A stretch of DNA of 64,000 bases from Candidatus Mediterraneibacter merdipullorum (lineage in GTDB: Bacteria; Bacillota; Clostridia; Lachnospirales; Lachnospiraceae). Position numbers and translations under genes: made by a program. Positions 9,099-53,844 of the stretch are shown here, piece after piece (the stretch's first letter is position 1; every line of letters starts with the position of its first letter). The stretch covers positions 1 through 64,000 of the forward strand of contig DXAL01000022.1 in the NCBI GenBank assembly GCA_019117125.1, read 5' to 3'. Below the pieces are notes generated by a model. That model made no database searches and was not told the DNA's origin. It was given only the letters and a program-made list of their open reading frames with translations.

Positions 9099-9140
9099 CA
9101 TAAAAATCATCAACCCATGAAAAGAAACATGACCGGATGC

Positions 9141-9300
9141 ATCGTTCAAGCTTTAGCATCACAGGGCATATCAATTGCATTAGGCTGCACCTTCACGACA
9201 CAGCCTGCTGACCATCTCATCGTGTCTCCACGAACTCGCGGCAGCAATCTCCGGGAACTTATCGTATCCTGATCCCTGTGGTAACCTCACCTACCGAATG
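9141..9300 (-). ncRNA. M-box (ykoK) magnesium riboswitch aptamer
   Basis: Minus strand carries the conserved elements CATTCGGTAGGTGAGGTTACCACAGGGATCAGGATACG ... ATGCAATTGATATGCCCTGTGATGCTAAAGCTTGAACGATG, upstream of a terminator and mgtE. Confidence 0.9.
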
Positions 9301-9466
9301 ATGTATTCTGTTTTTGTACGTGTCAATTTTAGAACAACATGGGCTGGGTGTCAAGACCGCATGTGAAAATGGGGAATTTGAGTGAAATCCTCTGGAAAAT
9401 CTGTTATAATCAGAAGGACCCGGAGCGTCTCCGGGTCAAAAAAGGATAAGAAAAGAGGATGACGAC

Positions 9467-35460: not shown

Positions 35461-36405
35461 TTACAGATGGATTCTTGTCCCGGTTTTTCCGAGGATTCCG
35501 TCTTTCGCTTTTTCCAGCAGTGTGATGAGCGCCTGTCTGCCGGGCTTTGAACCTGCAAAGTCCACAGCGGCCTGGACTTTCGGCAGCATGCTGCCGGGGG
35601 CAAAGTGCCCTTCGGCGATGTACTGTTTCGCCTCGTCCACTGTGATGTCGTCCAGCCACCTCTCATCCGGTTTGCCGTAGTTGACTGCCGCCTTTTCCAC
35701 GGCGGTCAGGATGATGAGGAAATCCGCATCCAGCTCTTTTGCCATCAGGCAGCTTGCGAAGTCCTTGTCGATGACTGCGCTGGCGCCTTTTAAGTGGTTG
35801 CCCTGCCGTGTGACGGGGATGCCGCCTCCACCGCATGCGATGACGACGTCGCCGGAATCCACCATGTTGCGGATGGTCCCGATTTCGATGATTTCCTGAG
35901 GCTTCGGGGAGGCCACTACACGGCGGTAGCCGCGTCCGGCGTCTTCCTTCATGATGTAGTCATATTTCTCAGCCATCTCATCCGCCTGCTCCTTTGTGAG
36001 AAAGCGTCCGATGGGTTTGGACGGATGCTCAAACGCCGGGTCGTCAGGGTCGACTCTCACCTGGGTAATCATGGTTGCCACCGGGATGTCTGTGATGCCC
36101 CGGTTTAAGAGCTCTTCACGGAGGGCGTTCTGCAGGTCATATCCGATGTATGCCTGGCTCATGGCTACGCAGACAGACAACGGTGTGTTGGGCTGCAGCG
36201 GGTCTTCATGGGTGAGGGCGAGCATGGCATTGTTCACCATGCCGACCTGGGGACCGTTCCCGTGCGCCACGACGACCTCACATCCCTCCTGAATCAGGTC
36301 CACGATGGCGCGGGACGTAATCTTTACAGCCTTCATCTGCTCCGGGAGCGTGTTGCCGAGGGCGTTTCCGCCCAGGGCGATGACGATACGTTTCTTCTTT
36401 TTCAT
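35461..36405 (-). CDS. arcC: Carbamate kinase
   Basis: RIVIALGGNALGNTLPEQMKAV, VVAHGNGPQVGMVNNAM, VVASPKPQEIIEI motifs. Confidence 0.96.
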   Translation of the reverse strand: MKKKKRIVIALGGNALGNTLPEQMKAVKITSRAIVDLIQEGCEVVVAHGNGPQVGMVNNAMLALTHEDPLQPNTPLSVCVAMSQAYIGYDLQNALREELLNRGITDIPVATMITQVRVDPDDPAFEHPSKPIGRFLTKEQADEMAEKYDYIMKEDAGRGYRRVVASPKPQEIIEIGTIRNMVDSGDVVIACGGGGIPVTRQGNHLKGASAVIDKDFASCLMAKELDADFLIILTAVEKAAVNYGKPDERWLDDITVDEAKQYIAEGHFAPGSMLPKVQAAVDFAGSKPGRQALITLLEKAKDGILGKTGTRIHL

Positions 36406-36417
36406 ATCCGTCCTCCA

Positions 36418-36801
36418 CTACGCTCCGCTGACAGCGGCGATTACCTCTACTTCGCAGAGGACGCCCTTGGGAAGCGCTTTTACGGCAACGCAGGAGCGCG
36501 CCGGTTTTCCGGTGAAATATTTTGCATATACTTCATTGAATGCAGCAAAGTCTGCCATGTCCGCAAGGAAGCAGGTTGTCTTTACCACATCGGTGAATGC
36601 TGCGCCCTGGCTTTCCAGGAGCGCTCCTATATTCTGCATGACCTGTTCTGCCTGTTCTTCGATGGTCGTTCCGACGACCTCTCCTGTTTCCGGTGAGAGC
36701 GGTATCTGACCGGAGAAGAAAGCGATGCCGTTCAGGACGATGCCCTGGGAGTAGGGACCGATGGCAGCAGGTGCGTTTTTTGTGTCAACATATTTCAACA
36801 T
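36418..36801 (-). CDS. ridA: RidA family enamine/imine deaminase
   Basis: [69 protein letters not shown]. Confidence 0.92.
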
Positions 36802-36817: not shown

Positions 36818-38011
36818 TTACTGAAAAATCCTCGGCGTTCCTTTTTCTTCCAGCTTCTTCAGGATGTCCGCCGGGTCGGCGAATTTCGCCAGGAAGATCA
36901 TCGCCGCGATGATGTACGGTTTGTAGCTCGCTTCTTTGTAGAGCGGGTCTCTGTAGCGGTCAAATACGCTGGCATCCACTTCGCCTTCCTCGCAGCTCAC
37001 GCCTGTGATGTCCGCCGGCAGGCAGTGCATGTAGAGGGCTTTTCCGTCTTTCGTCGTCTTCATCAGCTCCTCGGTGCATGCCCAGTCTTTGTGCTGCGCA
37101 TTCTGGGCGAGCAGTTCTTTTTCCAGTTCTTTGATGCCCTCGAAGTCACCGTTCCCGTACAGCTCGGTGCGCTTTTCCATCGCTGCGAAGGGAGCCCAGC
37201 TCTTCGGATATACGATGTCCGCGTCTTTGAACGCCTCTGTCATATTGTTTGTCTTTGTGAAAGTACCGCCGGATTTTTTCGCGTTTTCAGCGGCTACTGC
37301 CTCGACTTCCGGGAAGACCTCGTATCCTTCCGGGTGAGCCAGCACAACGTCCATACCGAAGCGGGTCATCAGTCCGATGATGCCCTGGGGAACGGAGAGG
37401 GGTTTCCCGTAAGACGGGGAATACGCCCATGACATGGCAATCTTTTTGCCTTTGAGATTTTCGACTCCCCCAAATTCATGGATGATGTGGAGCATATCCG
37501 CCATCGCCTGGGTCGGGTGGTCGATGTCGCACTGCAGGTTGACAAGGGTCGGCTTCTGCTCGAGGATGCCGTCTTTCTTTCCCTGGGTCACGGCGTCAAC
37601 CACTTCATGCATGTAAGCGTTTCCTTTGCCGATGTACATATCGTCACGGATGCCGATGACATCCGCCATGAAGGAAATCATATTTGCAGTCTCGCGCACC
37701 GTCTCGCCGTGCGCCACCTGGGATTTGCCCTCGTCCAGGTCCTGTACTTCAAGACCGAGCAGGTTGCAGGCAGATGCGAAGGAAAAGCGGGTGCGGGTGG
37801 AATTGTCCCGGAAGAGGGAGATGCCGAGCCCGCTCTCAAATACTTTTGTGGAGATGTTGTTCTCTCTCATGAAGCGAAGCGCGTCCGCAACGGTGAATAC
37901 GGCTTCCAGCTCTTCGTCGGTCTTCTCCCAGGTCAGGAAGAAGTCGCCTTCGTACATGTCTTTGAAGTTCAGTCTGTTCAGCTTATCGATATAATCCTGT
38001 AATGTTTTCAT
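36818..38011 (-). CDS. ygeW: Knotted carbamoyltransferase YgeW
   Basis: [53 protein letters not shown]-type site; [17 protein letters not shown]. Confidence 0.93.
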
Positions 38012-38089: not shown

Positions 38090-39400
38090 TTATTCACAGT
38101 AGCAGTTCGGCAGCGCCGCGTAGACCGCCGCGCAGGTCACCAGGTCCTGTTTCCATGTCTTCTCGTTGGGCGCGTGCGCCTGTGCCTCGGCGCCGGGGCC
38201 GAATCCGATGCAGGGGATGCCGTTCCTTCCCATGATGGATACGCCGTTTGTGGAGAAAGTCCACTTGTCTGTGAGCGGGCGGCTCTGGCGCATTTCCAGC
38301 GTCTCGGGAGCGCCGATGCGCTTCTCGCCGTAGAGGGAAGTATAAGCCTTCTCAAGGGCTTTTGTCACTTTGTGGTCTTTCGGGATCGCCCAGGTCGGGA
38401 AATAGCACTCAATCTCGTAAACGCATCCGGTGTAGGACGGCCGGTCGTAGTTGTACATGGATACGACCACGTCGTCCCCGTATTTCTGTACGCTCGGGAG
38501 TGCGCGTATCTCGTCCAGGCAGCTCTCCCATGTCTCGCCGAAGGTCATGCGGCGGTCCAGGGATACCGCGCAGGAATCCGCCACCGCGCAGCGGCTCGGG
38601 GAGGTGTAGAAGATCTGGGATACGGTTACCGTACCGCGACCCAGGAATCGTGCTTCCTCCCAGTCCGGATTGTATTTCGGGTTGAGCATCTTGACGAGCC
38701 CTTTGATTTCCGTTTCGTCCGCGTCATCATTCTCATTGAGGGCGCGCACATCCTGGAGGATGTCCGCCATCTTGTAGATGGCATTGTCGCCGCGCTCCGG
38801 AGCGGAACCGTGGCAGGAGACGCCTTTGACGTCCACGCGTATTTCCATGCGTCCGCGCTGTCCGCGGTAGATGCCGCCGTCCGTGGGTTCTGTGGATACG
38901 ACGAACTCCGGACGTACCTTGTCTTCGTTGATGATGTACTGCCAGCACAGCCCGTCGCAGTCTTCCTCCTGGACGGTCCCGACGACCATGATCCTGCATC
39001 CTTCGGGGATGAGGTCCATGTCTTTCATGATTCTTGCACCGTAAACGGCAGATACGAGGCCGCCGCACTGGTCGGACACGCCGCGCCCGCCGATTTCCGT
39101 GTCGTTTTCGTATCCCTCGTACGGGTCGAAGTCCCAGTTGTCGATGTTGCCGATGCCGACGGTATCGATATGTGCGTCGTAGGCGATGATTTTATCGCCG
39201 GTCCCCATGTAGCCGATGACATTTCCCTGGGGGTCGATGACGACTTCATCGAAGTCCAGTTTTTTCATCTCGGCGGCGATGGTGTCGATGTGAGCCTTTT
39301 CATCACAGCTCTCGCCCGGGTTTCTCACGATGGCGCGAAGAAATGCGGTCATGTCTTTTTCGTAAGCCTGTGCGGCTTCTTTGATTTTGTTGAAGTCCAT
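38090..39400 (-). CDS. ygeY: YgeY family selenium metabolism-linked M20 hydrolase
   Basis: M20 peptidase motifs ([31 protein letters not shown]) and operon context with ygeW/ygeX. Confidence 0.92.
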
Positions 39401-39445: not shown

Positions 39446-40651
39446 CTATCTGTCGTTTCCGCCCCACACGATGGATTCGTACCGTTCGGGGTCCGTGTCT
39501 CCTTCGGTGGAGAAGAGCAGGACTCTTGCATTTTCGTCCAGCCCCAGGTGTTCTCTTAAGGGGTGGTATTCGTCCATCGTCATGATGCATGCCAGTGTGC
39601 CGAAGGGGGCGGCTCCGGATTCTCCGGATGTCACCGGCCGGTCGCCTTTTACGGGCGCTGCCAGCATGCGCATGCCTCGTGCCGCCACCCAGTCGGGAGA
39701 GGCGACGAAGGTATCCACGTGATTCTTCAGGATGTCCCAGGAGATGGTGTTCGGTTCGCCGCAGGCGAGCCCCGCCATGATGGTCACCATGTCGCCGTCC
39801 ACGATGCGGATGCCGCCGTCTCCTGCCACTGCGCCTTTATAGAGGCAGGCAGCTGCCTCTGCCTCCACGACGATGACTTTGGGCGGGTTGTCCGGATAAC
39901 GGTTGGCAAAATATCCCTGGACCGCGCCCGCAAGGGAGCCGACGCCTGCCTGGATGAATACATGGGTCGGGCGTTCGCAGTCACAGTCGTGGAGCTGTTC
40001 GTCCGCCTCCATCGCCATGGTCCCGTAGCCCTGCATGATCCAGGACGGAATCTCCTCGTATCCGTCCCAGGCGGTATCCTGCACCATGACGCCGTTTTCG
40101 GTCTTTTCCGCCATGGCGTTCGCCATGCGGACACATTCGTCGTAATTGCATTCCTCGATGGTCGCCTGTGCGCCCTCGGCGAGGATGTTGTTCAGCCTTG
40201 TCTGTGTGCTTCCTTTCGGCATGAGGACGACTGCCTTCTGTCCCAGTTTATTGGCAGCCCAGGCCACGCCCCGCCCGTGATTGCCGTCTGTGGCGGTGAA
40301 GAATGTCGCCTGTCCGAATTCCCTCCGCAGTTCATCGGAAGTGAGCACGCTGTAGGGGAGTTCGGACACATCCCGTCCGGTCTGCTTTGCGATATAGCGC
40401 GCCATGGCGAATGAACCGCCGAGCACCTTGAAGGCGTTGAGTCCGAACCGGTAGGACTCATCTTTGATGTAGATTTCTCCCAGTCCGAGGCGGGACGCCA
40501 TGCGGTCGAGTTTTACGAGGGGCGTTACGCTGTACTGCGGGAAGCTCTCGTGAAAAGCGCGGGCTTTGCGGATTTCATCGAGTCCCATCACCTTCAGGTT
40601 TGCGTCTTCGGTCTTCGGCATGTTGTTCACTGCCCATTTGATTGTTTCCAT
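39446..40651 (-). CDS. ygeX: Diaminopropionate ammonia-lyase
   Basis: PLP fold type II: YIKDESYRFGLNAFKVLGGSFAM, TATDGNHGRGVAWAA, VIVVEAEAAACL. Confidence 0.94.
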   Translation of the reverse strand: METIKWAVNNMPKTEDANLKVMGLDEIRKARAFHESFPQYSVTPLVKLDRMASRLGLGEIYIKDESYRFGLNAFKVLGGSFAMARYIAKQTGRDVSELPYSVLTSDELRREFGQATFFTATDGNHGRGVAWAANKLGQKAVVLMPKGSTQTRLNNILAEGAQATIEECNYDECVRMANAMAEKTENGVMVQDTAWDGYEEIPSWIMQGYGTMAMEADEQLHDCDCERPTHVFIQAGVGSLAGAVQGYFANRYPDNPPKVIVVEAEAAACLYKGAVAGDGGIRIVDGDMVTIMAGLACGEPNTISWDILKNHVDTFVASPDWVAARGMRMLAAPVKGDRPVTSGESGAAPFGTLACIMTMDEYHPLREHLGLDENARVLLFSTEGDTDPERYESIVWGGNDR

Positions 40652-40677
40652 CGTGGAACCTCCTTATTGATATTATG

Positions 40678-40899
40678 ATGAACATGCCAGCTCGAATCCG
40701 CCGCTTTTATATCGAAGATACTCCTCGTATACTTCGGAGTATCTGCTTTCGCTCTAGGCTCGGAAAGACCTCGCCAAGTGCTCAATGCATCGCTGATGGC
40801 GTTCGCCATATATCGGCTCAGCATATGCTGCCATCTGAGAGTAAACTCTCATGGCAGATATGCTGCCCGCTGCATGTTCGCACTTGTTCGCATGTTCAT
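40678..40899 (-). repeat. 222-bp intergenic element bounded by 10-bp inverted repeats with internal hairpins
   Basis: ATGAACATGC (40678-40687) and GCATGTTCAT (40890-40899); internal AGATACTCC...GGAGTATCT (40716-40744) and GCATATGCTGCCATCTGAGAG-TAAA-CTCTCATGGCAGATATGC (40821-40863). Confidence 0.6.
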
Positions 40900-40907
40900 A
40901 CTTTTGT

Positions 40908-41555
40908 TCATCCTTTGTCCATGTAGCTATACAGTGTGAATTTTGATATTCCCAGCAGGGATGAGACTTTGTCGCCGGATTTTGTGATGAGGAAGGCGCC
41001 GGCGCTGTTTAAGTACTGTACCACCGCGACTTTGTCATCTTTTGTCATGAGCGCCACCGGCTTGCCGACTTTTGCCACAGCCTGGTCTATCAGCATGTCC
41101 AGGAGCTCTGTGACGTTGTGCGTGATTTTCTGCGGGGAATCCGCAGGGATTTCCGTCTCCTCCCCGGAGGACGCGGTATGCACCAGCCCCCGGATGGAAG
41201 CCTCCGCCGCCAGCAGGGTGGTGATGTCATAATTAATAGAAAAAATGTAGCTGATGCGTCCTTTTTCATCCCGGATGAACAGGGTGCTGGACTTGAGTAT
41301 CCGTCCGTCTTCTGTCTTGGTCAGGTAGGCGAGCCGGTCCCGCAGCTTATCCGGGTCGGTGCGGAGCGTCTCCAGCACGATGCCTGACGGTCCGTCGCCG
41401 GCATGGCGATCGGACACATGTCCGTTTTCAATATAGACGATGGAATTCTCCAGGTCTTTTTTCTTCAGGTCATGGATGACGACCTCGCAGGAGCTGCCGA
41501 ACTGCGCGGTCAGACCGTGTGCGAGCTGTTTTAAAAATTCCAGGTCCTGCTGCAT
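40908..41555 (-). CDS. YheO-like PAS + HTH transcriptional regulator
   Basis: PAS-like N-terminus (SSCEVVIHDLKKKDLENSIVYIENGHVSDRHAGD) and C-terminal HTH (KVAVVQYLNSAGAFLITKSGDKVSSLLGISKFTLYSYMDK). SD AAAGGCAGGTG precedes ATG 41555. Confidence 0.85.
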   Translation of the reverse strand: MQQDLEFLKQLAHGLTAQFGSSCEVVIHDLKKKDLENSIVYIENGHVSDRHAGDGPSGIVLETLRTDPDKLRDRLAYLTKTEDGRILKSSTLFIRDEKGRISYIFSINYDITTLLAAEASIRGLVHTASSGEETEIPADSPQKITHNVTELLDMLIDQAVAKVGKPVALMTKDDKVAVVQYLNSAGAFLITKSGDKVSSLLGISKFTLYSYMDKG

Positions 41556-41619
41556 TTTTTCACCTGCCTTTCCTGAATCCATAGGGAAAAACGCTTTTAA
41601 AATCCTTGTCTCTAACCCC

Positions 41620-41647
41620 ATCATAGCATAAAAAAATGCGGTGTCAA
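41620..41647 (-). promoter_or_regulatory. SigmaA-type promoter for regulator-ygeX-ygeY-ygeW-ridA-arcC
   Basis: Minus strand TTGACA - 16 bp - TATGAT. Confidence 0.65.
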
Positions 41648-41655
41648 TCCTTTTT

Positions 41656-41690
41656 CTAAAAAATTTTTAGGCACTCTAAAAAATATTTAG
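41656..41690. promoter_or_regulatory. Twin palindromic operator candidate between divergent purine operons
   Basis: CTAAAAAATTTTTAG (41656-41670) and CTAAAAAATATTTAG (41676-41690), 20 bp centre to centre. Confidence 0.7.
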
Positions 41691-41698
41691 AAACCTTG

Positions 41699-41727
41699 TT
41701 GCATTTATACATTATTAATGGTATTCT
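41699..41727 (+). promoter_or_regulatory. Putative promoter of the ssnA operon
   Basis: TTGCAT - 17 bp - TATTCT. Confidence 0.5.
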
Positions 41728-41823
41728 ATAGTCAGTGACAGGGTCTGGTGTGCGAATTGCACAGAAGCAGGCAGGGGCGCACCGGAAAAGATATGTGAAA
41801 AATAAATAAAAGGAGAACAGGAC

Positions 41824-43155
41824 ATGCTGGTTTTAGGAAACGGAACAGTCATCACCCGGGATGCAGCCTGCCCGTTGGTTAAGGACGGAGCAGTGGCAAT
41901 CGACGGGACTGCGATATGCAGGGTCGGTGACACGGCGCAGGTCCGGGCTGCATATCCGGACGCAGAGTATATCGATGCAAAGAGCGGTCTGATTATGCCG
42001 GGGTTCATCAATGTGCATGAACACATTTACAGTTCCTTTGCAAGAGGGCTTTCCATAAAAGGATATGCCCCGAAGGGATTCCTCGACATCCTGGACGGGC
42101 AGTGGTGGACCATTGACCGGAACCTTACGCTGCACGACACTTACTTAAGCGCCATGGCGACTTACATCGAATGCATCCGGAACGGCGTGACGACCATATT
42201 TGACCATCACGCAAGTTTCGGCGCCATCCGGGGCTCCCTTTTTGAGATTGGGAGAGCGGCGGAAGAGACGGGCGTGCGGTCCTGCCTGTGCTATGAAGTC
42301 TCGGACAGGGACGGCATGGACAAGGCGCGGGAAGCCGTACTGGAAAATGCGGAATTCATCCGCCATGCCCAGGCGGATGCAGGCGGCATGCTCGCCGGGA
42401 TGATGGGCATGCACGCACAGTTTACGATTTCCGATGAGACATTTGAGTTCGCTGCGGCGAACAAGCCGGATGGAGTTGGTTATCACATTCATGTGGCGGA
42501 AGGCATCGAGGACCTCCATCACTGTCTGGCACATTACGGCAAGCGCATCGTGGACCGGCTGATGGACCACGGCGTCCTGGGAGAGAAGACGCTGCTCGGG
42601 CACTGCATCTATATCAACCCGCACGAGATGGACCTGATAAAGGAAACGGACACCATGGTCGTGCACAATCCGGAGTCCAATATGGGCAATGCCTGCGGCT
42701 GTCCGCCGACCATGGAGCTGGTCCACAGGGGGATACTCACCGGGCTCGGGACCGACGGTTATACCCACGATATGATGGAATCCTGGAAGGTGGCGAACAT
42801 CCTCCACAAGCACCATCTCTGCGACCCGAATGCGGCGTGGGGCGAAGTGCCGCAGATGCTCTTTGAGAACAATGCAAAGATAGCGGGGCGGTATTTCCCG
42901 CAGGAGCTGGGCGTCCTGAAGGAGGGCGCGGCGGCGGATGTCATCATCGTGGACTACGACCCGCTCACCCCGCTCACGGCGGACAATATCAACGGACATC
43001 TTTTATTCGGCGTGACCGGGCACGATGTGGTGACAACGGTGGCGAACGGCGAAGTGCTGATGAAAGACCGGCGCCTTACAAAGACCGATGTCGAAAAGGT
43101 CATGGCAGACTGCAGACAGGCGGCAAAAGAACTGGCAGACAGAATCAATGCATGA
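41824..43155 (+). CDS. ssnA: SsnA-type aminohydrolase
   Basis: Amidohydrolase motifs (GLIMPGFINVHEHIYSSFARGL, GVTTIFDHHAS, LLGHCIYINPHEMDLI, GLGTDGYTHDMMESWKVANILHKH) with ygeX/ygfK context. Confidence 0.93.
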   Translation: MLVLGNGTVITRDAACPLVKDGAVAIDGTAICRVGDTAQVRAAYPDAEYIDAKSGLIMPGFINVHEHIYSSFARGLSIKGYAPKGFLDILDGQWWTIDRNLTLHDTYLSAMATYIECIRNGVTTIFDHHASFGAIRGSLFEIGRAAEETGVRSCLCYEVSDRDGMDKAREAVLENAEFIRHAQADAGGMLAGMMGMHAQFTISDETFEFAAANKPDGVGYHIHVAEGIEDLHHCLAHYGKRIVDRLMDHGVLGEKTLLGHCIYINPHEMDLIKETDTMVVHNPESNMGNACGCPPTMELVHRGILTGLGTDGYTHDMMESWKVANILHKHHLCDPNAAWGEVPQMLFENNAKIAGRYFPQELGVLKEGAAADVIIVDYDPLTPLTADNINGHLLFGVTGHDVVTTVANGEVLMKDRRLTKTDVEKVMADCRQAAKELADRINA

Positions 43156-43170
43156 AAGGAAAAATGAACG

Positions 43171-44601
43171 ATGAACGACACAAGACAGAAACGCGATAAT
43201 GCAGAATTATTCAAATGGGACGGGAAACCGTCATTCGGTCAGGTATTCCCGCTGGCAGCCCAGCACGTGCTCGCCGCAGTAGTCGGATGCGTGACTCCGG
43301 CAATCCTGGTGGCAAATGCGGCGAACAATGCGGGCGGAAATGTGGACATGGGGCTCCTCATCCAGGTATCCCTCGTGTTCGCAGCGCTGTCCACCCTGCT
43401 CCAGCTCTATGCATCTAAAATCAAACTGGGAAGCGGGCTCCCGGTCATTATCGGCGTCAGCTTCGCCTATGTGCCGACCATGACAGCCATCGCCGCGCAG
43501 GCAAAAGATGTCAATACCATTTTCGGCGCCATGGTCATCGGCGGCGTGGTCGCCATCCTGGTGGGCCTTTTTATCCGCCAGATACGAAGGGTATTCCCAC
43601 CCCTTGTCATCGGCACGGTCATTCTTGCCATTGGGCTTTCCCTTTACAGCACCGCAGTCAATTACATGGCGGGCAATTCTTCCAATACATATGAAGTCAT
43701 CGTGGAACAGCAGGGCAGGACGGCTGCCCTCGTCTACGGGTCCTGGCAGAACTGGCTGGTGGCATTCGTCACACTGGCCATCGTTGTCCTTCTGAACCAT
43801 TACGGAAAAGGGCTTTTCAAACTGGCGTCCATTCTCATCGGTCTGCTCTGCGGCTATGTAGTTGCTCTGTGCTTCGGCATGGTGGACTTCTCCGCACTGT
43901 CCTCCGCAGGATGGTTCCAGGTTCCGATGCCGCTGGCATTTGGCATGAAATTTGATATTTCGGCGATCCTGCCCCTTGCCATCCTCTTCCTGGTCAATTC
44001 CATCCAGGCCATGGGTGATTTCTCAGCGACGACGACAGGCGGCATGGACCGTCTTCCCACGGATGATGAGCTCAACGGCGGTATCATCGGATATGGTGTG
44101 AGCAATATGGTATGTGCATTCTTCGGCTGCCCGCCGACGGCGACCTACAGCCAGAACGTGGGCATCGTAGGCTCCACCAGGGTCGTTGCCAGACGGGTGT
44201 TCTCCGCAGCGGCAGTCATCCTGCTCATCGCCGGACTCATCCCGAAGTTCTCGGCGCTTCTGCGGACCATTCCCCAGTGCGTGCTGGGCGGCGCGGTTGC
44301 ATCCGTATTCGCATCCATTGCCATGACCGGCATCAAGCTGCTCGTAACCGAGAAACTGACTTACAGAAACACGACTGTGGCAGGACTTTCCATCGCCATC
44401 GGCATGGGCGTGACGCTCAATGACGGATGCCTGAACCAGATGACCCAGAGCATCCACAGTGCGCTGAACATGAGCATGAGCCTGGAGAGCTTCCAGTCCA
44501 TCATCAACAATACATTCGCATCTTCGCCGGTTGTCCTTGCGACCATCTTCGCGGTCGTACTGAACCTCATCCTTCCAAAGGATAAGCCGGAAGCAAATTA
44601 G
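43171..44601 (+). CDS. Nucleobase:cation symporter-2 family purine (xanthine/urate) permease
   Basis: Multi-TM; QHVLAAVVGCVTPAILVANA; QAMGDFSATTTGGMDRLPTDDELNGGI; CPPTATYSQNVGIVGSTRV. Confidence 0.92.
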   Translation: MNDTRQKRDNAELFKWDGKPSFGQVFPLAAQHVLAAVVGCVTPAILVANAANNAGGNVDMGLLIQVSLVFAALSTLLQLYASKIKLGSGLPVIIGVSFAYVPTMTAIAAQAKDVNTIFGAMVIGGVVAILVGLFIRQIRRVFPPLVIGTVILAIGLSLYSTAVNYMAGNSSNTYEVIVEQQGRTAALVYGSWQNWLVAFVTLAIVVLLNHYGKGLFKLASILIGLLCGYVVALCFGMVDFSALSSAGWFQVPMPLAFGMKFDISAILPLAILFLVNSIQAMGDFSATTTGGMDRLPTDDELNGGIIGYGVSNMVCAFFGCPPTATYSQNVGIVGSTRVVARRVFSAAAVILLIAGLIPKFSALLRTIPQCVLGGAVASVFASIAMTGIKLLVTEKLTYRNTTVAGLSIAIGMGVTLNDGCLNQMTQSIHSALNMSMSLESFQSIINNTFASSPVVLATIFAVVLNLILPKDKPEAN

Positions 44602-44628: not shown

Positions 44629-47625
44629 ATGAGTGATATCATGAGACCAATGTCATTCGCCCAGCTTTTAAACTGGACACTGACGGAATGGAAAAAGAGC
44701 GGGACTGTATTCGGGGAGCACCATCCCTATCATGCAGATGCCGGATATGCCCGCACGATATTCGGGCGCACCCTGGAGACTCCGGTGGGTCCGGCGGCTG
44801 GTCCGCACACACAGCTCGCCCAGAATATCGCGGCAGCCTACTATACCGGAAGCCGGTTTTTCGAGCTGAAGACCGTGCAGGTCATGGACGGGGCGGAACT
44901 GTCCGCGTGTGTGAACAAGCCCTGCATCAAGGCGGACGACGAGTGCTACAACTGCGAGTGGTCCACTGAGCTTTATGTGCCCCAGGCAATGGAAGAGTAC
45001 ATCAAGGCGTGGTTCCTGTGCAAGGTGATGGCAAAGGAATTCGGTCTTGGCAGCATGGACGGCTTCCAGTTCAACATCAGCGTGGGCTACGACCTGGAAG
45101 GCATCCGTTCGGAAAAGATTAACAACTTCTTAAATACAATGCAGCACGCCCGGGAATCGGAGATCTTCCGGGAATGCAGGGCGTACCTGCTGGCGCATGC
45201 GGACCTGTTTGAGAAGGTGACGAAAGAGGATATCGAAGGGATTTCCGGAGATATCTGCAACTCCGTGACCATCTCCACCCTGCACGGATGTCCGCCACAG
45301 GAGATCGAGCGCATCGCCATGTATCTGATTACGGAGAAAGGATTCCACACATTCATCAAATGCAATCCCACGCTTCTTGGCTATGAGTATGCGCGGAAGA
45401 TGATGGACGACATGGGTTACGATTATGTGGCGTTCGGAGATTTTCATTTTAAGGACGACCTGCAGTACAAGGACGCCGTGCCCATGCTGGAGCGCCTGAT
45501 GAAAGTCTGCGAAGAGCGGAACCTGGAGTTCGGCGTGAAGATTACCAATACGTTCCCGGTGGATGTAAAGCAGAATGAACTGCCCAGCGAGGAAATGTAT
45601 ATGTCGGGCAAGTCGCTGTATCCGCTGTCTATCTCTGTGGCGGCGAAACTGGCGAAGGATTTTGACGGAAAGCTGCGCATCTCCTATTCGGGCGGCGCGG
45701 ATTACTACAATATCAAAGACATCGTGGAGGCGGGCATCTGGCCGGTAACAGTGGCGACGACGCTGCTCAAGCCCGGCGGATATGACCGGATGCACCAGAT
45801 GGCGTCTGTTCTGGAAGAAGAGGGAGCCGTATTCTCCGGCGTGGATGCAGACGCAGTACAGCGCCTTGTGGATGCGGCAAAGACCGACCCCCATCATGTG
45901 AAGGCGGTGAAGCCGCTCCCGTCCAGGAAGATGAAGAAACAGATGCCGCTTCTGGACTGCTACACTGCGCCCTGTAAGGAAGGATGCCCTATCCGTCAGG
46001 ATATCCCCGCTTATCTGCAGCTCGTAAAGGCAGGGAGATACGAAGAGGCGATGGAAGTCATCACAGAGAAGAACCCCCTTCCGTTTATTACGGGAACAAT
46101 CTGCGCCCATCCGTGTATGGGCAGATGCACCCGCAATTTCTATGAGGAATCCGTCTACATCCGGGGCATGAAGCTGACTGCGGCAGAACACGGATACGAT
46201 GCGCTGATGGAGAAGATGGAGGCGTCTCCGGTGACAAGGAGCGGCAGGGCAGCCGTGATCGGAGGCGGTCCGGCAGGAATGGCGGCGGCTTATTTCCTGC
46301 GAAGGGCAGGCATGGAGACGACCCTGTTTGAGAAGACCGGCGCCCTGGGCGGCGTGGTGCGCCACGTCATCCCGGAATTCCGCATCCCGGGAAGCGCCGT
46401 TGACAAAGACGCCGCACTTCTGGAGAAGATGGGCGTCCAGGTGTGCCTTGATACGGAAATCACGGATTTGGATATGCTGAAAAACGCGGGATACACGGCA
46501 GTCATCCTTGCAGTGGGCGCGTCTGAGCCGGGCGTGCTCCGCCTCGAGAAGGGCGAGCCGGTGAACGCACTGGAATTCCTGGCAGAGTTCAAGGCAAAAG
46601 AGGGGAACCTTAATATTGGGAAAAATGTTGTCATCATTGGCGGCGGAAATACCGCCATGGATACCGCCCGGGCGGCAAAACGCACGAAGGGCGTGGAACA
46701 CGCGTACCTGGTATACCGGCGGACGAAGCGGTACATGCCGGCGGACGAGGAAGAACTTGTGATGGCAGTGGAAGACGGCGTGGAATTCATGGAGCTGCTC
46801 TCTCCGGTGAAGCTGGAGAACGGAACGCTTCTCTGCAAAGTGATGAAGCTGGGTGACTATGACGCGTCCGGCAGGAGAGGCGTGGTGGAGACCGGGGAAG
46901 AGAAAGAAATTCCGGCGGACACCGTAATCGCCGCAGTGGGCGAGCGCGTGCCTACCGCATTCTATGAGTCCTGCGGCATCCGTGTCAATGACCGGGGACG
47001 CGCCGTTGTAAACGAAGAAACCTGTGAATCCAGCCGTGCCGGCGTATACATTGTGGGCGACGGCATGGGCGGTCCGGCGACGGTGGTCGAGGGCATCCGG
47101 GATGCACGCAAAGCCGCAGAGGCGGTGGCAGGAGAACCGCTGGTGCGGGATTACGAGCCGGAGACGGACGAGGATGTGATATACGCAGGAAGAGGAAATC
47201 TGGAAGAGCGCAGGAAAGACCGGGAAGAGGGAGGCAGATGCCTCGGATGTTCCGGTATCTGCGAGAACTGTGCGGAAGTCTGTCCGAACCGGGCGAATAT
47301 CGCCATCCGCGTGCCGGGCATGGAGAAGCATCAGATTCTCCATGTGGATTACATGTGCAATGAATGCGGCAACTGCAGGAGCTTCTGCCCTTATGACAGC
47401 GCTCCGTATCTGGATAAGTTCACCCTTTTTGCCGACGAGAAAGATATGGATGACAGCAAAAACCAGGGCTTTACCGTACTGGACCGGGAGCAGGTGAAAT
47501 GCAGGGTCCGGTTCTTCGGAGAGACCACGGTCTGGACAAAGGGCGAAGCGACCGGGATACCGGAAGGGCTCCGGAAGATGATGGAGGCGGTCTGCACGGA
47601 ATATGCGTATCTTTTGAGAGACTGA
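44629..47625 (+). CDS. ygfK: YgfK family (annotated putative selenate reductase) multidomain Fe-S flavoprotein
   Basis: N-terminal TIM-barrel-like region, GltD-like Cys cluster CYTAPCKEGCPIRQDIPAYL and NAD/FAD motifs, C-terminal ferredoxin-like CLGCSGICENCAEVCPNRANI ... CNECGNCRSFCPYD. Confidence 0.92.
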   Translation: MSDIMRPMSFAQLLNWTLTEWKKSGTVFGEHHPYHADAGYARTIFGRTLETPVGPAAGPHTQLAQNIAAAYYTGSRFFELKTVQVMDGAELSACVNKPCIKADDECYNCEWSTELYVPQAMEEYIKAWFLCKVMAKEFGLGSMDGFQFNISVGYDLEGIRSEKINNFLNTMQHARESEIFRECRAYLLAHADLFEKVTKEDIEGISGDICNSVTISTLHGCPPQEIERIAMYLITEKGFHTFIKCNPTLLGYEYARKMMDDMGYDYVAFGDFHFKDDLQYKDAVPMLERLMKVCEERNLEFGVKITNTFPVDVKQNELPSEEMYMSGKSLYPLSISVAAKLAKDFDGKLRISYSGGADYYNIKDIVEAGIWPVTVATTLLKPGGYDRMHQMASVLEEEGAVFSGVDADAVQRLVDAAKTDPHHVKAVKPLPSRKMKKQMPLLDCYTAPCKEGCPIRQDIPAYLQLVKAGRYEEAMEVITEKNPLPFITGTICAHPCMGRCTRNFYEESVYIRGMKLTAAEHGYDALMEKMEASPVTRSGRAAVIGGGPAGMAAAYFLRRAGMETTLFEKTGALGGVVRHVIPEFRIPGSAVDKDAALLEKMGVQVCLDTEITDLDMLKNAGYTAVILAVGASEPGVLRLEKGEPVNALEFLAEFKAKEGNLNIGKNVVIIGGGNTAMDTARAAKRTKGVEHAYLVYRRTKRYMPADEEELVMAVEDGVEFMELLSPVKLENGTLLCKVMKLGDYDASGRRGVVETGEEKEIPADTVIAAVGERVPTAFYESCGIRVNDRGRAVVNEETCESSRAGVYIVGDGMGGPATVVEGIRDARKAAEAVAGEPLVRDYEPETDEDVIYAGRGNLEERRKDREEGGRCLGCSGICENCAEVCPNRANIAIRVPGMEKHQILHVDYMCNECGNCRSFCPYDSAPYLDKFTLFADEKDMDDSKNQGFTVLDREQVKCRVRFFGETTVWTKGEATGIPEGLRKMMEAVCTEYAYLLRD

Positions 47626-47689: not shown

Positions 47690-49057
47690 ATGAAACGGTT
47701 GTTAAAAGGCGGAACAGTTGTGAGCGGAGAAGGGAGACGCCGGCTCGACATCCTGATAAAGGGTGAGAAGATACTCGCCATGGGGGAAGACCTGGAGTAT
47801 CGGGACGCCGAGGTCGTGGACGTGACGGGGAAACTTTTGTTCCCGGGATTTATCGACGCGCATACGCATATGGCGCTGGAAGTAAGCGGCACGGTCACTG
47901 CGGACGGGTTCGATACGGGAAGCAAGGCGGAACTGGCAGGCGGGACCACCTGCATCATCGACTATGCCACCCAGTATCCCGGCGAGAGCCTGAGGGAAGC
48001 CCTGGCGAACTGGCATGCAAAGGCAGACGGACAGTCCTCCTGCGACTATGCCTTCCATCTGGCGCTCACGGACTGGAATGAGGACGTCAGCCGGGAACTG
48101 GAAGAGATTGTCCGGGAAGAGACCTGCTCTTTCAAACTGTACATGACATACGATACGATGGTGGACGACGAGACGATGTATGAGATACTCTCCCGGCTCA
48201 AGGAGCTGGGCGGCATCGCCGGCGTACACTGTGAAAATGACGGCATCATCCGGGCGCGGTCAAAAGAACTGCATCGGACAAAGGGGAGCCGAACGGATGT
48301 ATCGGATTACCCGTGGACGCGTCCGAAGGAAGCGGAGGCAGAAGCGGTATCCCGGCTTTTGAAGATAGCCAGATGCGTGGATACTCCGGTTATCATCGTC
48401 CATCTGAGCACGGCGGCGGGCTACCGGGAAATCCTCCGGGCGAGAGAGGCGGGACAGACCGTCTATATCGAGACCTGCCCCCAGTATCTCGTGATGGATG
48501 AGAGCCGGTATTCCCTTCCGGCAGAGGAGGCGAGGCATTTCATGATTGCGCCGCCGCTGCGGAAAAAGAAAAACCAGGAAATCCTCTGGCAGGCGTTAAA
48601 AGAAGGACGCATCCAGACCATTGCCACAGACCACTGCAGCTTCACAAAAGCGCAGAAGATGGCGGGAGAAGGAGATTTCACAAAGACGCCGTGCGGGATG
48701 CCGGGGGCACAGGAGCGCCCGGCGCTGGTCTGGAAGTTCGGCGTGTGCGAAAAGCGGATTACCGCGGAACAGATGTGCACGTATCTGTCGGAGAATCCGG
48801 CAAAGCTCTATCAACTCTACCCGGAAAAGGGAGCCCTCATTGCCGGGGCGGATGCGGACATCGTCGTCTGGGACCCGGAGGCAGCGTGGACGATGACGGC
48901 ATCGGATATGCAGTCCGCCTGCGATTACTGCCCCATGGAAGGCACAGAGGTGACCGGAATGGCGCAGCAGGTGTATCTGCGGGGAAAGCTGGTGGCGGAA
49001 AACGGAAACATACTGGACGAAAAGAATGGCGTGTATGTGCGCCACGGTGTGAAATGA
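47690..49057 (+). CDS. Dihydropyrimidinase / hydantoinase family amidohydrolase
   Basis: LLFPGFIDAHTHMALEVSGTVTADGFDTGSKAELAGGTTCIIDY; VHCENDGII; TIATDHCSF. Confidence 0.93.
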   Translation: MKRLLKGGTVVSGEGRRRLDILIKGEKILAMGEDLEYRDAEVVDVTGKLLFPGFIDAHTHMALEVSGTVTADGFDTGSKAELAGGTTCIIDYATQYPGESLREALANWHAKADGQSSCDYAFHLALTDWNEDVSRELEEIVREETCSFKLYMTYDTMVDDETMYEILSRLKELGGIAGVHCENDGIIRARSKELHRTKGSRTDVSDYPWTRPKEAEAEAVSRLLKIARCVDTPVIIVHLSTAAGYREILRAREAGQTVYIETCPQYLVMDESRYSLPAEEARHFMIAPPLRKKKNQEILWQALKEGRIQTIATDHCSFTKAQKMAGEGDFTKTPCGMPGAQERPALVWKFGVCEKRITAEQMCTYLSENPAKLYQLYPEKGALIAGADADIVVWDPEAAWTMTASDMQSACDYCPMEGTEVTGMAQQVYLRGKLVAENGNILDEKNGVYVRHGVK

Positions 49058-49859: not shown

Positions 49860-51253
49860 AGATTTTAATCCGGGGGGCAGGGGACCTGGCTACAGGCATC
49901 GCATCCCGGCTGTACCGGGCAGGGCACCACATCCTGATGACAGAGATTCCGGTGCCCCTTACCGTGCGCAGGAGCGTGGCATTTTCCCGCGCGGTCTGTG
50001 AAGGACGCGCGCAGGTGGAAGATATGACGGCAGTGCTGGCAGAGGACCGGACAGCCGCAGAACGGGTGCTCTCAGAGGGCGACATCGCGGTCCTGGTGGA
50101 CGAGACGGCATCCTGCCGGAGCTGGTACAGACCGGATGTGGTCGTGGACGCCATACTTGCCAAGAAAAACCTGGGGACCCGCATCACGGACGCGCCCTTT
50201 GTCATCGGCGTCGGACCGGGATTTATGGCAGGGGCTGACTGCCACTGTGTAGTGGAGACAAAGCGGGGGCATACCCTGGGGAGCGTCATTCAAAAAGGAA
50301 GCGCCATCCCCAATACCGGCGTGCCCGGAAATGTAGGCGGGTACACTACCGAGCGCCTTATCCGGGCGGAAGGAGACGGCATGCTGGAGCCCAAAGCATG
50401 CATCGGGGATTTTGTGCAGAAGGGGCAGGTCGTCGCCGTGACCGGCGGCATCCCCGTGTACGCACAGATGAGCGGCATCCTGCGCGGCATGCTCCAGGGC
50501 GGCGTGAACGTGTGGAGGGGGCTGAAGATTGGGGATATCGACGCCCGGGCGGAACGCTCCCACTGCGAGACCATCTCCGATAAGGCGCGCGCCGTGGGAG
50601 GCGGCGTCCTGGAGGCAGCGGCGTCCTTTGAACGGATGAAGGACCGCTATGCCATCGTGGTCCTGGCAGCAGGCGGCGGCAGCCGGTTCGGCGGCGATAA
50701 GCTGTGCGTTCCGGTAAAGGGAAGACCGCTCTATGAGCATACCCTGGAAAAGGTGCAGGCATTTGGCGCATTTCCGGCTTTCATTGTGACCGGCTCTGAA
50801 AAGATTGCACGGGCGGCGGAAAGCAGGGGCATCTGCCCGGTAAAGAATACAGAGCCTGAAAAAGGCATCGCTCATTCGGTAAAGCTGGGGCTGGGAAAAG
50901 CGCTGGAGAGTACGGACGGGTTAAGAGGCGTGCTCTTTCTGGTGTGCGACCAGCCGGAAATCCAAATCCCGACAATCGGGGAAATCTTCCGCACGGCGGC
51001 GCGCCATCCGGGCAGCATCGTCTGCGCGGGGAACGGGGACCGGAAAGGGAATCCGGTCTGCTGGGACGCGGCGTATTTTCCGGAGCTGATGGAGCTGTCC
51101 GGGGATGAAGGAGGACGCCGGGTCATGAGAAACCACAGGGAGAAGATACGGATTGTCCAGGCGGATATCAGGGAACTCAGAGACATCGACCGGAAGGAAG
51201 ACCTTCAGGACCTTCAGGAGAGGATTCTCCGGGAAGAACAGGTGACGACATGA
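49856..51253 (+). CDS. yqeB: YqeB (EF2563-type selenium-dependent molybdenum hydroxylase accessory protein) fused to MocA-like nucleotidyltransferase
   Basis: N-terminal KILIRGAGDLATGIASRLYRAGHHILMTE; C-terminal YAIVVLAAGGGSRFGGDKLCVPVKGRPLYEHTL. Confidence 0.9.
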   Translation: MKILIRGAGDLATGIASRLYRAGHHILMTEIPVPLTVRRSVAFSRAVCEGRAQVEDMTAVLAEDRTAAERVLSEGDIAVLVDETASCRSWYRPDVVVDAILAKKNLGTRITDAPFVIGVGPGFMAGADCHCVVETKRGHTLGSVIQKGSAIPNTGVPGNVGGYTTERLIRAEGDGMLEPKACIGDFVQKGQVVAVTGGIPVYAQMSGILRGMLQGGVNVWRGLKIGDIDARAERSHCETISDKARAVGGGVLEAAASFERMKDRYAIVVLAAGGGSRFGGDKLCVPVKGRPLYEHTLEKVQAFGAFPAFIVTGSEKIARAAESRGICPVKNTEPEKGIAHSVKLGLGKALESTDGLRGVLFLVCDQPEIQIPTIGEIFRTAARHPGSIVCAGNGDRKGNPVCWDAAYFPELMELSGDEGGRRVMRNHREKIRIVQADIRELRDIDRKEDLQDLQERILREEQVTT

Positions 51254-53844
51254 AAGAAACGTATACATTTATAGTAAATGGAGTGGAGCGCACGGTCAGT
51301 GAGGACAAGCCGCTGCTCCGGTATCTGCGGGACGACCTGCATCTTCATTCTGTCAAGGACGGGTGCAGCGAGGGCGCCTGCGGGACCTGTACCATTATCG
51401 TGGACGGCAGGGCGGTCCGGTCCTGCGTCCTCTCCACCAGACGTGCCGTGGGGAAGACGATACTCACGACAGAGGGACTCTCGGAAAAGGAGAAGGAAGC
51501 GTTCGTCTATGCGTTCGGCGCAAAAGGCTCCGTGCAGTGCGGGTTCTGCATTCCGGGCATGGTCATGGCAGGGAAGGCGCTCATCGACCGGGTGCCCGCT
51601 CCCACAGAGGAAGAGATCAAGGCGGCGCTGAAAGGAAATATCTGCCGCTGTACAGGATATAAGAAAATCATCGAGGGCATCCAGCTCGCCGCAGCCATCC
51701 TGCGCGGGGACGCAGAGACAGACCCGGAGCTGGAAAAAGGCGATGCATACGGAGTGGGACAGAAAGCATTCCGGCTGGATGTGCGTGAGAAAGTGCTCGG
51801 ATACGGCGAATATCCGGACGACGTGGAGATGGAAGGGATGGTCTATGCATCGGCGGTCCGCTCCGCATATCCCCGCGCCCGCATCCTGGATATCCATGCA
51901 GAGGAGGCGCTGGCGCTGCCCGGCGTGCTCGCCGTGCTGACGGCGGAGGACGTGCCGAATAACAAGGTCGGCCACCTGCAGCAGGACTGGGATGTGATGA
52001 TTGCAAAAGGCAGCGTCACCCGCTGTGTGGGGGACGCCATCTGCCTGGTGGTGGCAGAGACAAGGGACATCCTGGAACAGGCGAAAAAGCTCATCCGGAT
52101 TGACTACGAAGAGCTCAGACCCGTGACCTGTGTCCGGGAAGCCATGGCGGAAGATGCGCCGAAGGTTCATTCCGGCGGGAATCTGTGCCAGAAGCGGCAT
52201 GTGACAAGGGGAGATGCGAAGAAAGCCCTTGCCGGCTCCAAATATGTGGTGACTCAGACTTACCGGACGCCCTTTACGGAGCACGCATTCCTGGAGCCGG
52301 AGTCCGCAGTGGCGTTTCCGTACAAGGACGGGGTGAAGGTCTACTCTTCCGACCAGGGCGTCTATGACACCAGGCACGAGATATCCATCATGCTCGGATG
52401 GGAGCCGGAGCGCGTGGTCGTGGAAAACAAGCTGGTAGGAGGCGGTTTCGGCGGGAAAGAGGACGTGTCTGCCCAGCATATCGCGGCGCTGGCCGCGCTG
52501 AAAGTAGGACGTCCGGTGAAGGTCACATTTTCCCGGCAGGAATCCATCAATTTCCATCCGAAGCGCCATGCGATGGAAGGCACCTTTACGCTGGGCTGCG
52601 ATGAGAACGGGATATTTACGGGACTGGACTGCGAAATCTACTTTGACACAGGCGCTTACGCATCCCTCTGCGGACCGGTGCTGGAACGCGCCTGCACCCA
52701 TTCTGTGGGACCGTACTGCTATCAGAACACCGATATCCGTGGGTACGGATATTATACGAACAACCCGCCGGCAGGGGCATTCCGGGGGTTCGGCGTGTGC
52801 CAGAGCGAGTTTGCCCTGGAATCCAACATCAACCTCCTGGCGGAGAAGGTGGGAATCTCTCCCTGGGAGATACGCTACCGCAATGCCATCGAGCCGGGAA
52901 AAGTCCTGCCGAACGGGCAGATTGCCGACTGCTCCACCGCACTGAAGGAGACCCTCCTTGCGGTAAAGGAAGCCTACGAGAGCAATCCCGGGCGCGCGGG
53001 GATCGCCTGCGCGATGAAAAACGCCGGCGTCGGTGTGGGGCTGCCGGATAAAGGCAGGGCAAAGCTGGTCGTACAGGACGGGAAGGTGGAGCTCTACAGC
53101 GCTGCATCTGATATCGGACAGGGCTGCAGAACGGTGTTCGTGCAGATGGCTGCAGAGGCCACCGGGCTTGGGAAAGAACAGATTATCAATATGGGCGCCA
53201 ACTCCGAAGTGGCGCCGGATTCCGGGACCACATCCGGTTCCAGGCAGACGCTCATCACCGGGGAAGCGGTGCGAATGGCTGCCGAAGACCTGAGGAAAGA
53301 CCTTGCGGCAGCAGACGGCGACCTGGGGAAACTGGAAGGCAGAGAATATTTTGCAGAATTCTTCGACCCCACCGACAAGCTGGGCGCAGATGTACCTTAT
53401 CCGAAGAGCCATGTGGCGTACGGCTTTGCGACCCATGTGGTCATCCTGGATGACGACGGACAGGTGAAGGAAGTCTATGCGGCGCACGATTCCGGAAAAG
53501 TCGTCAACCCCATCGCCATCCAGGGACAGATTGAAGGGGGCGTGCTCATGGGACTGGGCTATGCGCTGACGGAAGATTTCCCCCTCAAAGACTGCGTGCC
53601 CCAGGCGCGGTACGGAACGCTGGGGCTGATGCGCGCGACCCAGATACCGGATATCCACGCCATCTATGTGGAAAAAGAGGAACTCCTTCCCTTCGCGTAC
53701 GGCGCCAAAGGAATCGGAGAGATTGCTACGATACCGACGGCTCCGGCGGCACAGGGCGCGTACTATGCAATGGACCATGTGCTGCGGACGAAGCTGCCGA
53801 TGGAAGATACCTTCTACTCGAAAAAGAAGAAACCGGCGAAATGA
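51250..53844 (+). CDS. Selenium-type xanthine dehydrogenase: fused [2Fe-2S] and molybdopterin-binding domains
   Basis: [2Fe-2S] motifs KDGCSEGACGTCTIIVDG and QCGFCIPGMVMAG...GNICRCTGYKKI; Moco motifs GGGFGGKEDVSAQH, PAGAFRGFGVCQSEFALE, DIGQGCRTVF. Confidence 0.92.
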   Translation: MKETYTFIVNGVERTVSEDKPLLRYLRDDLHLHSVKDGCSEGACGTCTIIVDGRAVRSCVLSTRRAVGKTILTTEGLSEKEKEAFVYAFGAKGSVQCGFCIPGMVMAGKALIDRVPAPTEEEIKAALKGNICRCTGYKKIIEGIQLAAAILRGDAETDPELEKGDAYGVGQKAFRLDVREKVLGYGEYPDDVEMEGMVYASAVRSAYPRARILDIHAEEALALPGVLAVLTAEDVPNNKVGHLQQDWDVMIAKGSVTRCVGDAICLVVAETRDILEQAKKLIRIDYEELRPVTCVREAMAEDAPKVHSGGNLCQKRHVTRGDAKKALAGSKYVVTQTYRTPFTEHAFLEPESAVAFPYKDGVKVYSSDQGVYDTRHEISIMLGWEPERVVVENKLVGGGFGGKEDVSAQHIAALAALKVGRPVKVTFSRQESINFHPKRHAMEGTFTLGCDENGIFTGLDCEIYFDTGAYASLCGPVLERACTHSVGPYCYQNTDIRGYGYYTNNPPAGAFRGFGVCQSEFALESNINLLAEKVGISPWEIRYRNAIEPGKVLPNGQIADCSTALKETLLAVKEAYESNPGRAGIACAMKNAGVGVGLPDKGRAKLVVQDGKVELYSAASDIGQGCRTVFVQMAAEATGLGKEQIINMGANSEVAPDSGTTSGSRQTLITGEAVRMAAEDLRKDLAAADGDLGKLEGREYFAEFFDPTDKLGADVPYPKSHVAYGFATHVVILDDDGQVKEVYAAHDSGKVVNPIAIQGQIEGGVLMGLGYALTEDFPLKDCVPQARYGTLGLMRATQIPDIHAIYVEKEELLPFAYGAKGIGEIATIPTAPAAQGAYYAMDHVLRTKLPMEDTFYSKKKKPAK

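Follow-up and report, generated by a model that had tools for sequence, protein, structure and literature searches.

Divergent catabolic operons that share an operator for a local one-component regulator of the LysR, AraC or IclR type are textbook systems. In such loci the regulator gene heads one arm, the binding sites lie between the two promoters and one pathway is coordinately controlled. The locus analysed here resembles them in these respects, whereas it differs by a mirror-symmetric pair of complete palindromes that offers an identical geometry to both promoters, and by a regulator combining PAS_6 and HTH_22 domains. This domain architecture is shared with the YheO/DauR family. A member of this family, DauR of Pseudomonas, represses its target, D-arginine catabolism; unlike DauR, the regulator studied here has urate or cyclic-amide catabolism as its predicted target. 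Host uric acid is broken down anaerobically by gut bacteria through enzymes that have been elucidated only recently. The genes of both arms of the locus belong to the reductive route of uric acid degradation (PMC12507026), and like the E. coli and C. difficile clusters described there they comprise homologues of ssnA, ygfK, hyuA, ygeW, ygeX, ygeY, carbamate kinase and XDH. The word 'regulator' is absent from the main text of that paper; by contrast, a regulator and an operator are predicted here for the clostridial version. In the open-access literature we found neither an operator for the YheO family nor a regulator of this cluster. Since shared operators between divergent operons are well established, and since the domains of the regulator define a known family whose operator is undescribed in that literature, we regard the operator as new and the kind of system as ordinary.

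The window, i.e. the whole stretch of 64,000 nucleotides that was analysed, belongs to a Mediterraneibacter-type Lachnospiraceae genome, and relatives with this locus bear the name Mediterraneibacter. It holds a reductive urate degradation cluster in which ssnA, ygfK, ygeW, ygeX and ygeY all scored above the curated cut-offs of their family profiles. On the minus strand, the gene for the YheO-type regulator (40908-41555, start ATG 41555; PAS_6 + HTH_22), the proposed binder, is followed by ygeX, the first enzyme gene of this operon, encoding diaminopropionate ammonia-lyase (39446-40651, TIGR03528), the ygeY hydrolase gene (38090-39400, TIGR03526), the ygeW carbamoyltransferase gene (36818-38011, TIGR03316), a RidA-family deaminase gene (36418-36801, TIGR00004) and the carbamate kinase gene (35461-36405, TIGR00746). 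The plus-strand operon starts with the aminohydrolase gene ssnA (41824-43155, NF005540 and TIGR03314) and continues with an NCS2 xanthine/uracil-family permease gene (43171-44601), the ygfK oxidoreductase gene (44629-47625, TIGR03315), hyuA of the dihydropyrimidinase/hydantoinase family (47690-49057, TIGR02033), yqeC, a MobA-like fusion and a xanthine dehydrogenase-type molybdenum hydroxylase gene (xdh, 51250-53844). The gap between yheO and ygeX (40652-40907) measures 256 bp in the window versus about 30 bp in several relatives and contains an inverted repeat at 40717-40743, present as a single copy in the window; this repeat-bearing gap is probably an insertion inside the operon. Elsewhere in the window, an M-box (magnesium) riboswitch was detected at 9131-9305 on the minus strand (78.9 bits).

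Between the divergent yheO-ygeXYW and ssnA promoters lie two near-identical 15-bp palindromes spaced 20 bp centre to centre: site A, CTAAAAAATTTTTAG (41656-41670, centre 41663), is proximal to the yheO promoter and site B, CTAAAAAATATTTAG (41676-41690, centre 41683), to the ssnA promoter. The minus-strand yheO promoter (41620-41647) consists of a -35 element TTGACA (41647-41642), a 16-bp spacer and the extended -10 element TG-N-TATGAT (41625-41620); it scored 11/12, with the extended TG noted alongside. On the plus strand, the ssnA promoter (41699-41727) has the -35 element TTGCAT (41699-41704), a 17-bp spacer and the extended -10 element TG-N-TATTCT (41722-41727). Both palindromes with their spacing, and both promoters, had been proposed in a sequence-only reading of this DNA; upon re-check of the window sequence the coordinates and the 20-bp distance of the palindromes were exact, the promoter positions were confirmed, and an extended TG was seen at each promoter. 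The mirror symmetry is exact: at both promoters the proximal palindrome is centred 16 bp from the -35 element, counted to its first base. Dinucleotide shuffling of the 268-bp intergenic region, repeated 20,000 times, never produced a twin of similar 15-bp palindromes. No third CTAAAN5TTTAG site exists in the 64-kb window beyond sites A and B, and no further twin was found in the 2.3-Mb genome, where the next best matches carried two mismatches and were fewer than those of the control pattern; no operator sites acting in trans were found outside the main locus of this genome. The preference for ATG 41555 over the start of the longer open reading frame also held, as ATG 41624 falls inside the -10 element (TATGATG) and an AGGTG ribosome site, kept in nearly all relatives, precedes ATG 41555.

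The twin proved to be conserved in orthologous divergent regions, a point named beforehand as a refutation test. All 54 distinct yheO-ssnA regions hold the twin with at most two arm mismatches, and its distances to the promoters are fixed. The regions stem from relatives of the Mediterraneibacter type, from Faecalicatena and from one Oscillospiraceae MAG, with YheO identities down to 57%; the M. catenae region L181 likewise has the twin. The spacing of the two palindromes was 20 bp in 53/54 regions, and the proximal centre lay 16 bp from the -35 element at 53/54 yheO promoters and 49/54 ssnA promoters, the remainder showing 15 or 17 bp. The promoters themselves are likewise conserved. On the yheO side, the 16-bp spacer was kept in 53/54 regions, the TG in all and TTGACT or TTGACA as -35 element in 48/54; on the ssnA side, TTGCAT occurred in 46/54 and TATTCT in 52/54, and the 17-bp spacer and TG were invariant.

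The A/T-rich cores, the 20-bp spacing of nearly two helical turns and the place just upstream of the -35 elements could also suit phased A-tracts, acting as bent DNA or UP elements instead of a protein site. However, the palindrome arms (C/T/A) reached nearly 2 bits across the 54 regions, and the outer letters ranked with the best-kept positions (C 98-100%, G 100%). By contrast, A and T are interchangeable at the centre, and the 5-bp spacer is free to vary. Moreover, moved pathway genes and genes of regulator paralogues carry CTAAA...TTTAG, which is more than plain A/T. The A-tract explanation is therefore highly improbable and, judged from these sequence comparisons, the twin palindrome is almost certainly a real operator. 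Three natural experiments argue for an operator over an A-tract background, namely duplicated twins, moved genes with a twin of their own and the paralogues.

In seven regions (L018, L019, L045, L058, L078, L080 and L086) extra DNA separates the promoters and two complete twins are present, so that every promoter has its own complete twin 16 bp away. The spacers of the duplicated twins differ (e.g. GTTAT/ATGCT, GTAAT/GGGTT and GTAAT/GGCGT) while the arms are preserved. Because a complete twin per promoter is kept in these regions, it seems that a promoter requires the pair and that the distal palindrome is more than the other promoter's site. In L018 and L019, the DNA between the operator copies contains a promoter-like stretch with a terminator-like hairpin behind it, which may represent a short transcript or the remnant of an insertion.

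Sites outside the main locus were found at three kinds of target. Cuneatibacter sp. NSJ-177 retains the divergent yheO-ssnA arrangement, with a slightly decayed twin in between, and ygeX-ygeY-ygeW-arcC lies about 45 kb from yheO; this moved operon has its own twin, CTAAAACTTTTTTAG-ATTTC-CTAAAAATTTTTTAG, 16 bp from the -35 element TTGCAT. The Mediterraneibacter genome G008 has an ssnA operon without xdh; on another contig it encodes a selenium-dependent XDH, 53% identical to that of the window, preceded by its own twin CTAAAATATTTTTAG-GTGT-CAAAAACTTTTTTAG 16 bp from TTGCTT. An NCS1 permease operon of genome G025, which lacks a yheO nearby, also carries a site at this 16-bp distance. Taken together, duplications and relocations illustrate clearly, in a natural setting, what an operator has to retain.

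For specificity, one genome per species was scanned for pairs of CTAAAN5TTTAG blocks separated by 4-6 bp, which yielded at least 80 stretches. Among the 80 matches listed, 46 had the 20-bp spacing and 40 of these belonged to loci of this pathway; among the same matches, only one of the 34 with 19- or 21-bp spacing did. Matches in Bacteroidetes, Campylobacter, Nostoc and others were set aside as chance hits or other repeats, having mostly 21-bp spacing and no cluster genes. Across 392 genomes of the order, the pair was confined to the genus of the window. Four of the 58 genus members lack ssnA, and these also lack a close yheO and an exact twin. G078, which at first sight had lost YheO and kept ssnA, merely reaches a contig end there, and its operator is still present. 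The single-site matches G064:C34, G008:C5:63318 and G008:C14 were rejected as chance, since the second site, a pathway gene and a correctly spaced promoter were all absent. Among 30 wider ssnA loci of the phylum, one (G708) has a YheO gene (48%) inside the 1.5-kb flanks examined; its palindrome CTAAAAAATATTTTTTAG was not counted as a twin, being one longer palindrome.

The YheO protein of the window combines an N-terminal YheO-like PAS_6 domain (PF08348, 125.2 bits against a Pfam cut-off of 27) with a C-terminal HTH_22 domain (PF13309, 72.9 bits, cut-off 29.6). Structure prediction gave a PAS fold followed by helices, and a sequence search retrieved no homologue of solved structure. The recognition-helix region GISKFTLY is conserved within the YheO clade, which was found mainly in Lachnospiraceae. 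Ten close paralogues (56-62% identity) adjoin other genes, and nine of them keep a twin, with 19-bp spacing, an often degenerate site B and mostly 16 bp to the -35 element; none of 200 shuffles was as good. In the remaining paralogue region, L210, no twin was found, and YheO genes of 25-48% identity showed no convincing twin. Four paralogues (L209, L214, L215 and L042) are divergent from dihydropyrimidinase operons, to which L209 and L214 add a permease of the NCS1 allantoin/nucleobase type; these would represent a second regulon of this regulator clade, one for cyclic-amide catabolism that is apparently undescribed.

The adjacent YheO gene had been put forward as the source of the binder. Its candidacy gains support beyond adjacency because the motif accompanies both the paralogues of another operon and pathway genes away from yheO, and YheO very probably binds the twin palindrome. 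Another protein might bind, with YheO a mere neighbour: gains and losses of yheO coincide with those of the pathway genes, so that co-occurrence alone does not separate YheO from another binder. This explanation is improbable, however, as the motif precedes YheO paralogues of another operon and is absent at more distant YheO genes, and as exact 20-bp-spaced pairs occurred, among the matches listed, almost only in these loci. What counts against the reading proposed below is that site and regulator have a common ancestry wherever the regulator adjoins its target.

With YheO as the binder, we propose a shared operator occupied by two YheO dimers, through which both halves of the urate pathway are co-controlled, probably by activation; we assign this whole reading a probability of roughly 0.6. 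The two dimers, a stoichiometry that we infer, would sit on the pair of 15-bp palindromes, separated by about two helical turns. Owing to the mirror symmetry, which places the centres near -50 and -70 of both promoters and 16 bp from each -35 element, the bound complex would face RNA polymerase identically in both directions. By virtue of this identical geometry, yheO-ygeX-ygeY-ygeW-ridA-arcC and ssnA-permease-ygfK-hyuA-...-xdh would be switched together, and such symmetric control is sensible as the enzymes of the pathway are split between the two arms. The PAS domain is the presumed sensor of a metabolite of this pathway, with urate, xanthine and later intermediates as candidates, and ligand-loaded, bound YheO would most likely activate.

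The direction of control deserves separate consideration. The sequence-only reading had called the arrangement a classic activator geometry. Class I or II activator sites are centred at -61.5 or -41.5 in textbook cases, and the centres near -50 and -70, counted from estimated start sites (near 41613 and 41734), do not match these positions. What stood of that claim is that such centres fit an activator; the geometry is compatible with one and not by itself proof. Activation is favoured on the grounds that both sites lie upstream of the -35 element, the distance to it is near-exact at unrelated targets and the target cores are weak; on this sequence evidence YheO probably activates rather than represses. 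A counterpoint is the yheO promoter, which is near consensus (9-11/12) and thus odd for an activator-dependent promoter.

The same operator and binder could instead serve repression, with YheO barring the alpha C-terminal domains of RNA polymerase from A/T-rich upstream DNA until a ligand releases it. This would suit the yheO core promoter, TTGAC(T/A)-16-TATGAT at 9-11/12 across the 54 regions, which is strong unaided, and the run of T residues that separates site A from the yheO -35 element and resembles an UP element; DauR, too, is a repressor. The syntenic yheO-ssnA regions of family f211 (L279 and L280) carry, upstream of yheO, another repeat of 20-bp spacing that is CTAACAAATYRTTTG-like, at about 2167-2202 in L279 and 2160-2195 in L280; it lies downstream of the yheO -10 element, a repressor-like place. 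On the other hand, neither site of the window overlaps a core promoter, the 16-bp distance to the -35 element is near-exact at all promoters, the moved ones included, and the ssnA core is uniformly weak (7-8/12 in the 54 regions). Repression is the main rival, yet a possibility of lower standing, and we regard it as rather doubtful.

With a regulator named, its putative operator sharply defined and several targets located at a distance from the regulator gene, the predicted regulon can be tested directly. It could help to foresee which gut strains are able to turn on the urate pathway, and it offers a candidate natural purine-responsive promoter pair.

Separate from the twin, the ssnA leader contains a covarying 9-bp helix around an invariant CGA-NN-TGCACAG (41738-41790, plus strand). 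Its motif TRTGCGAANTGCACA was matched exactly in 36 of the 58 genomes, essentially once per genome and at ssnA, the exception being G069 with an exact match at another place; the control gave 0. Seven of the nine helix pairs showed two-sided changes, and the covariation score was 0.58, versus 0.39 when shuffled and at most 0.23 when slid. The ssnA leaders matched no Rfam family, and a model built from the element matched close relatives only. The element is a candidate for a cis-regulatory RNA or for a DNA site. A two-layer control of the ssnA operon, with initiation governed via the YheO twin and a new leader RNA sensing urate, xanthine or an intermediate, is conceivable, though we consider it unlikely. 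In L159, L185 (Faecalicatena) and L039, the ssnA leader has, in place of the 41738-41790-type element, a conserved long hairpin, ATACAAAATATAGTGCGACGTGCA(A/G)GG...CCTTGTAGAATTTGTATAC, that shares the GTGCGANNTGCA core. The L185 leader gave no Rfam match.
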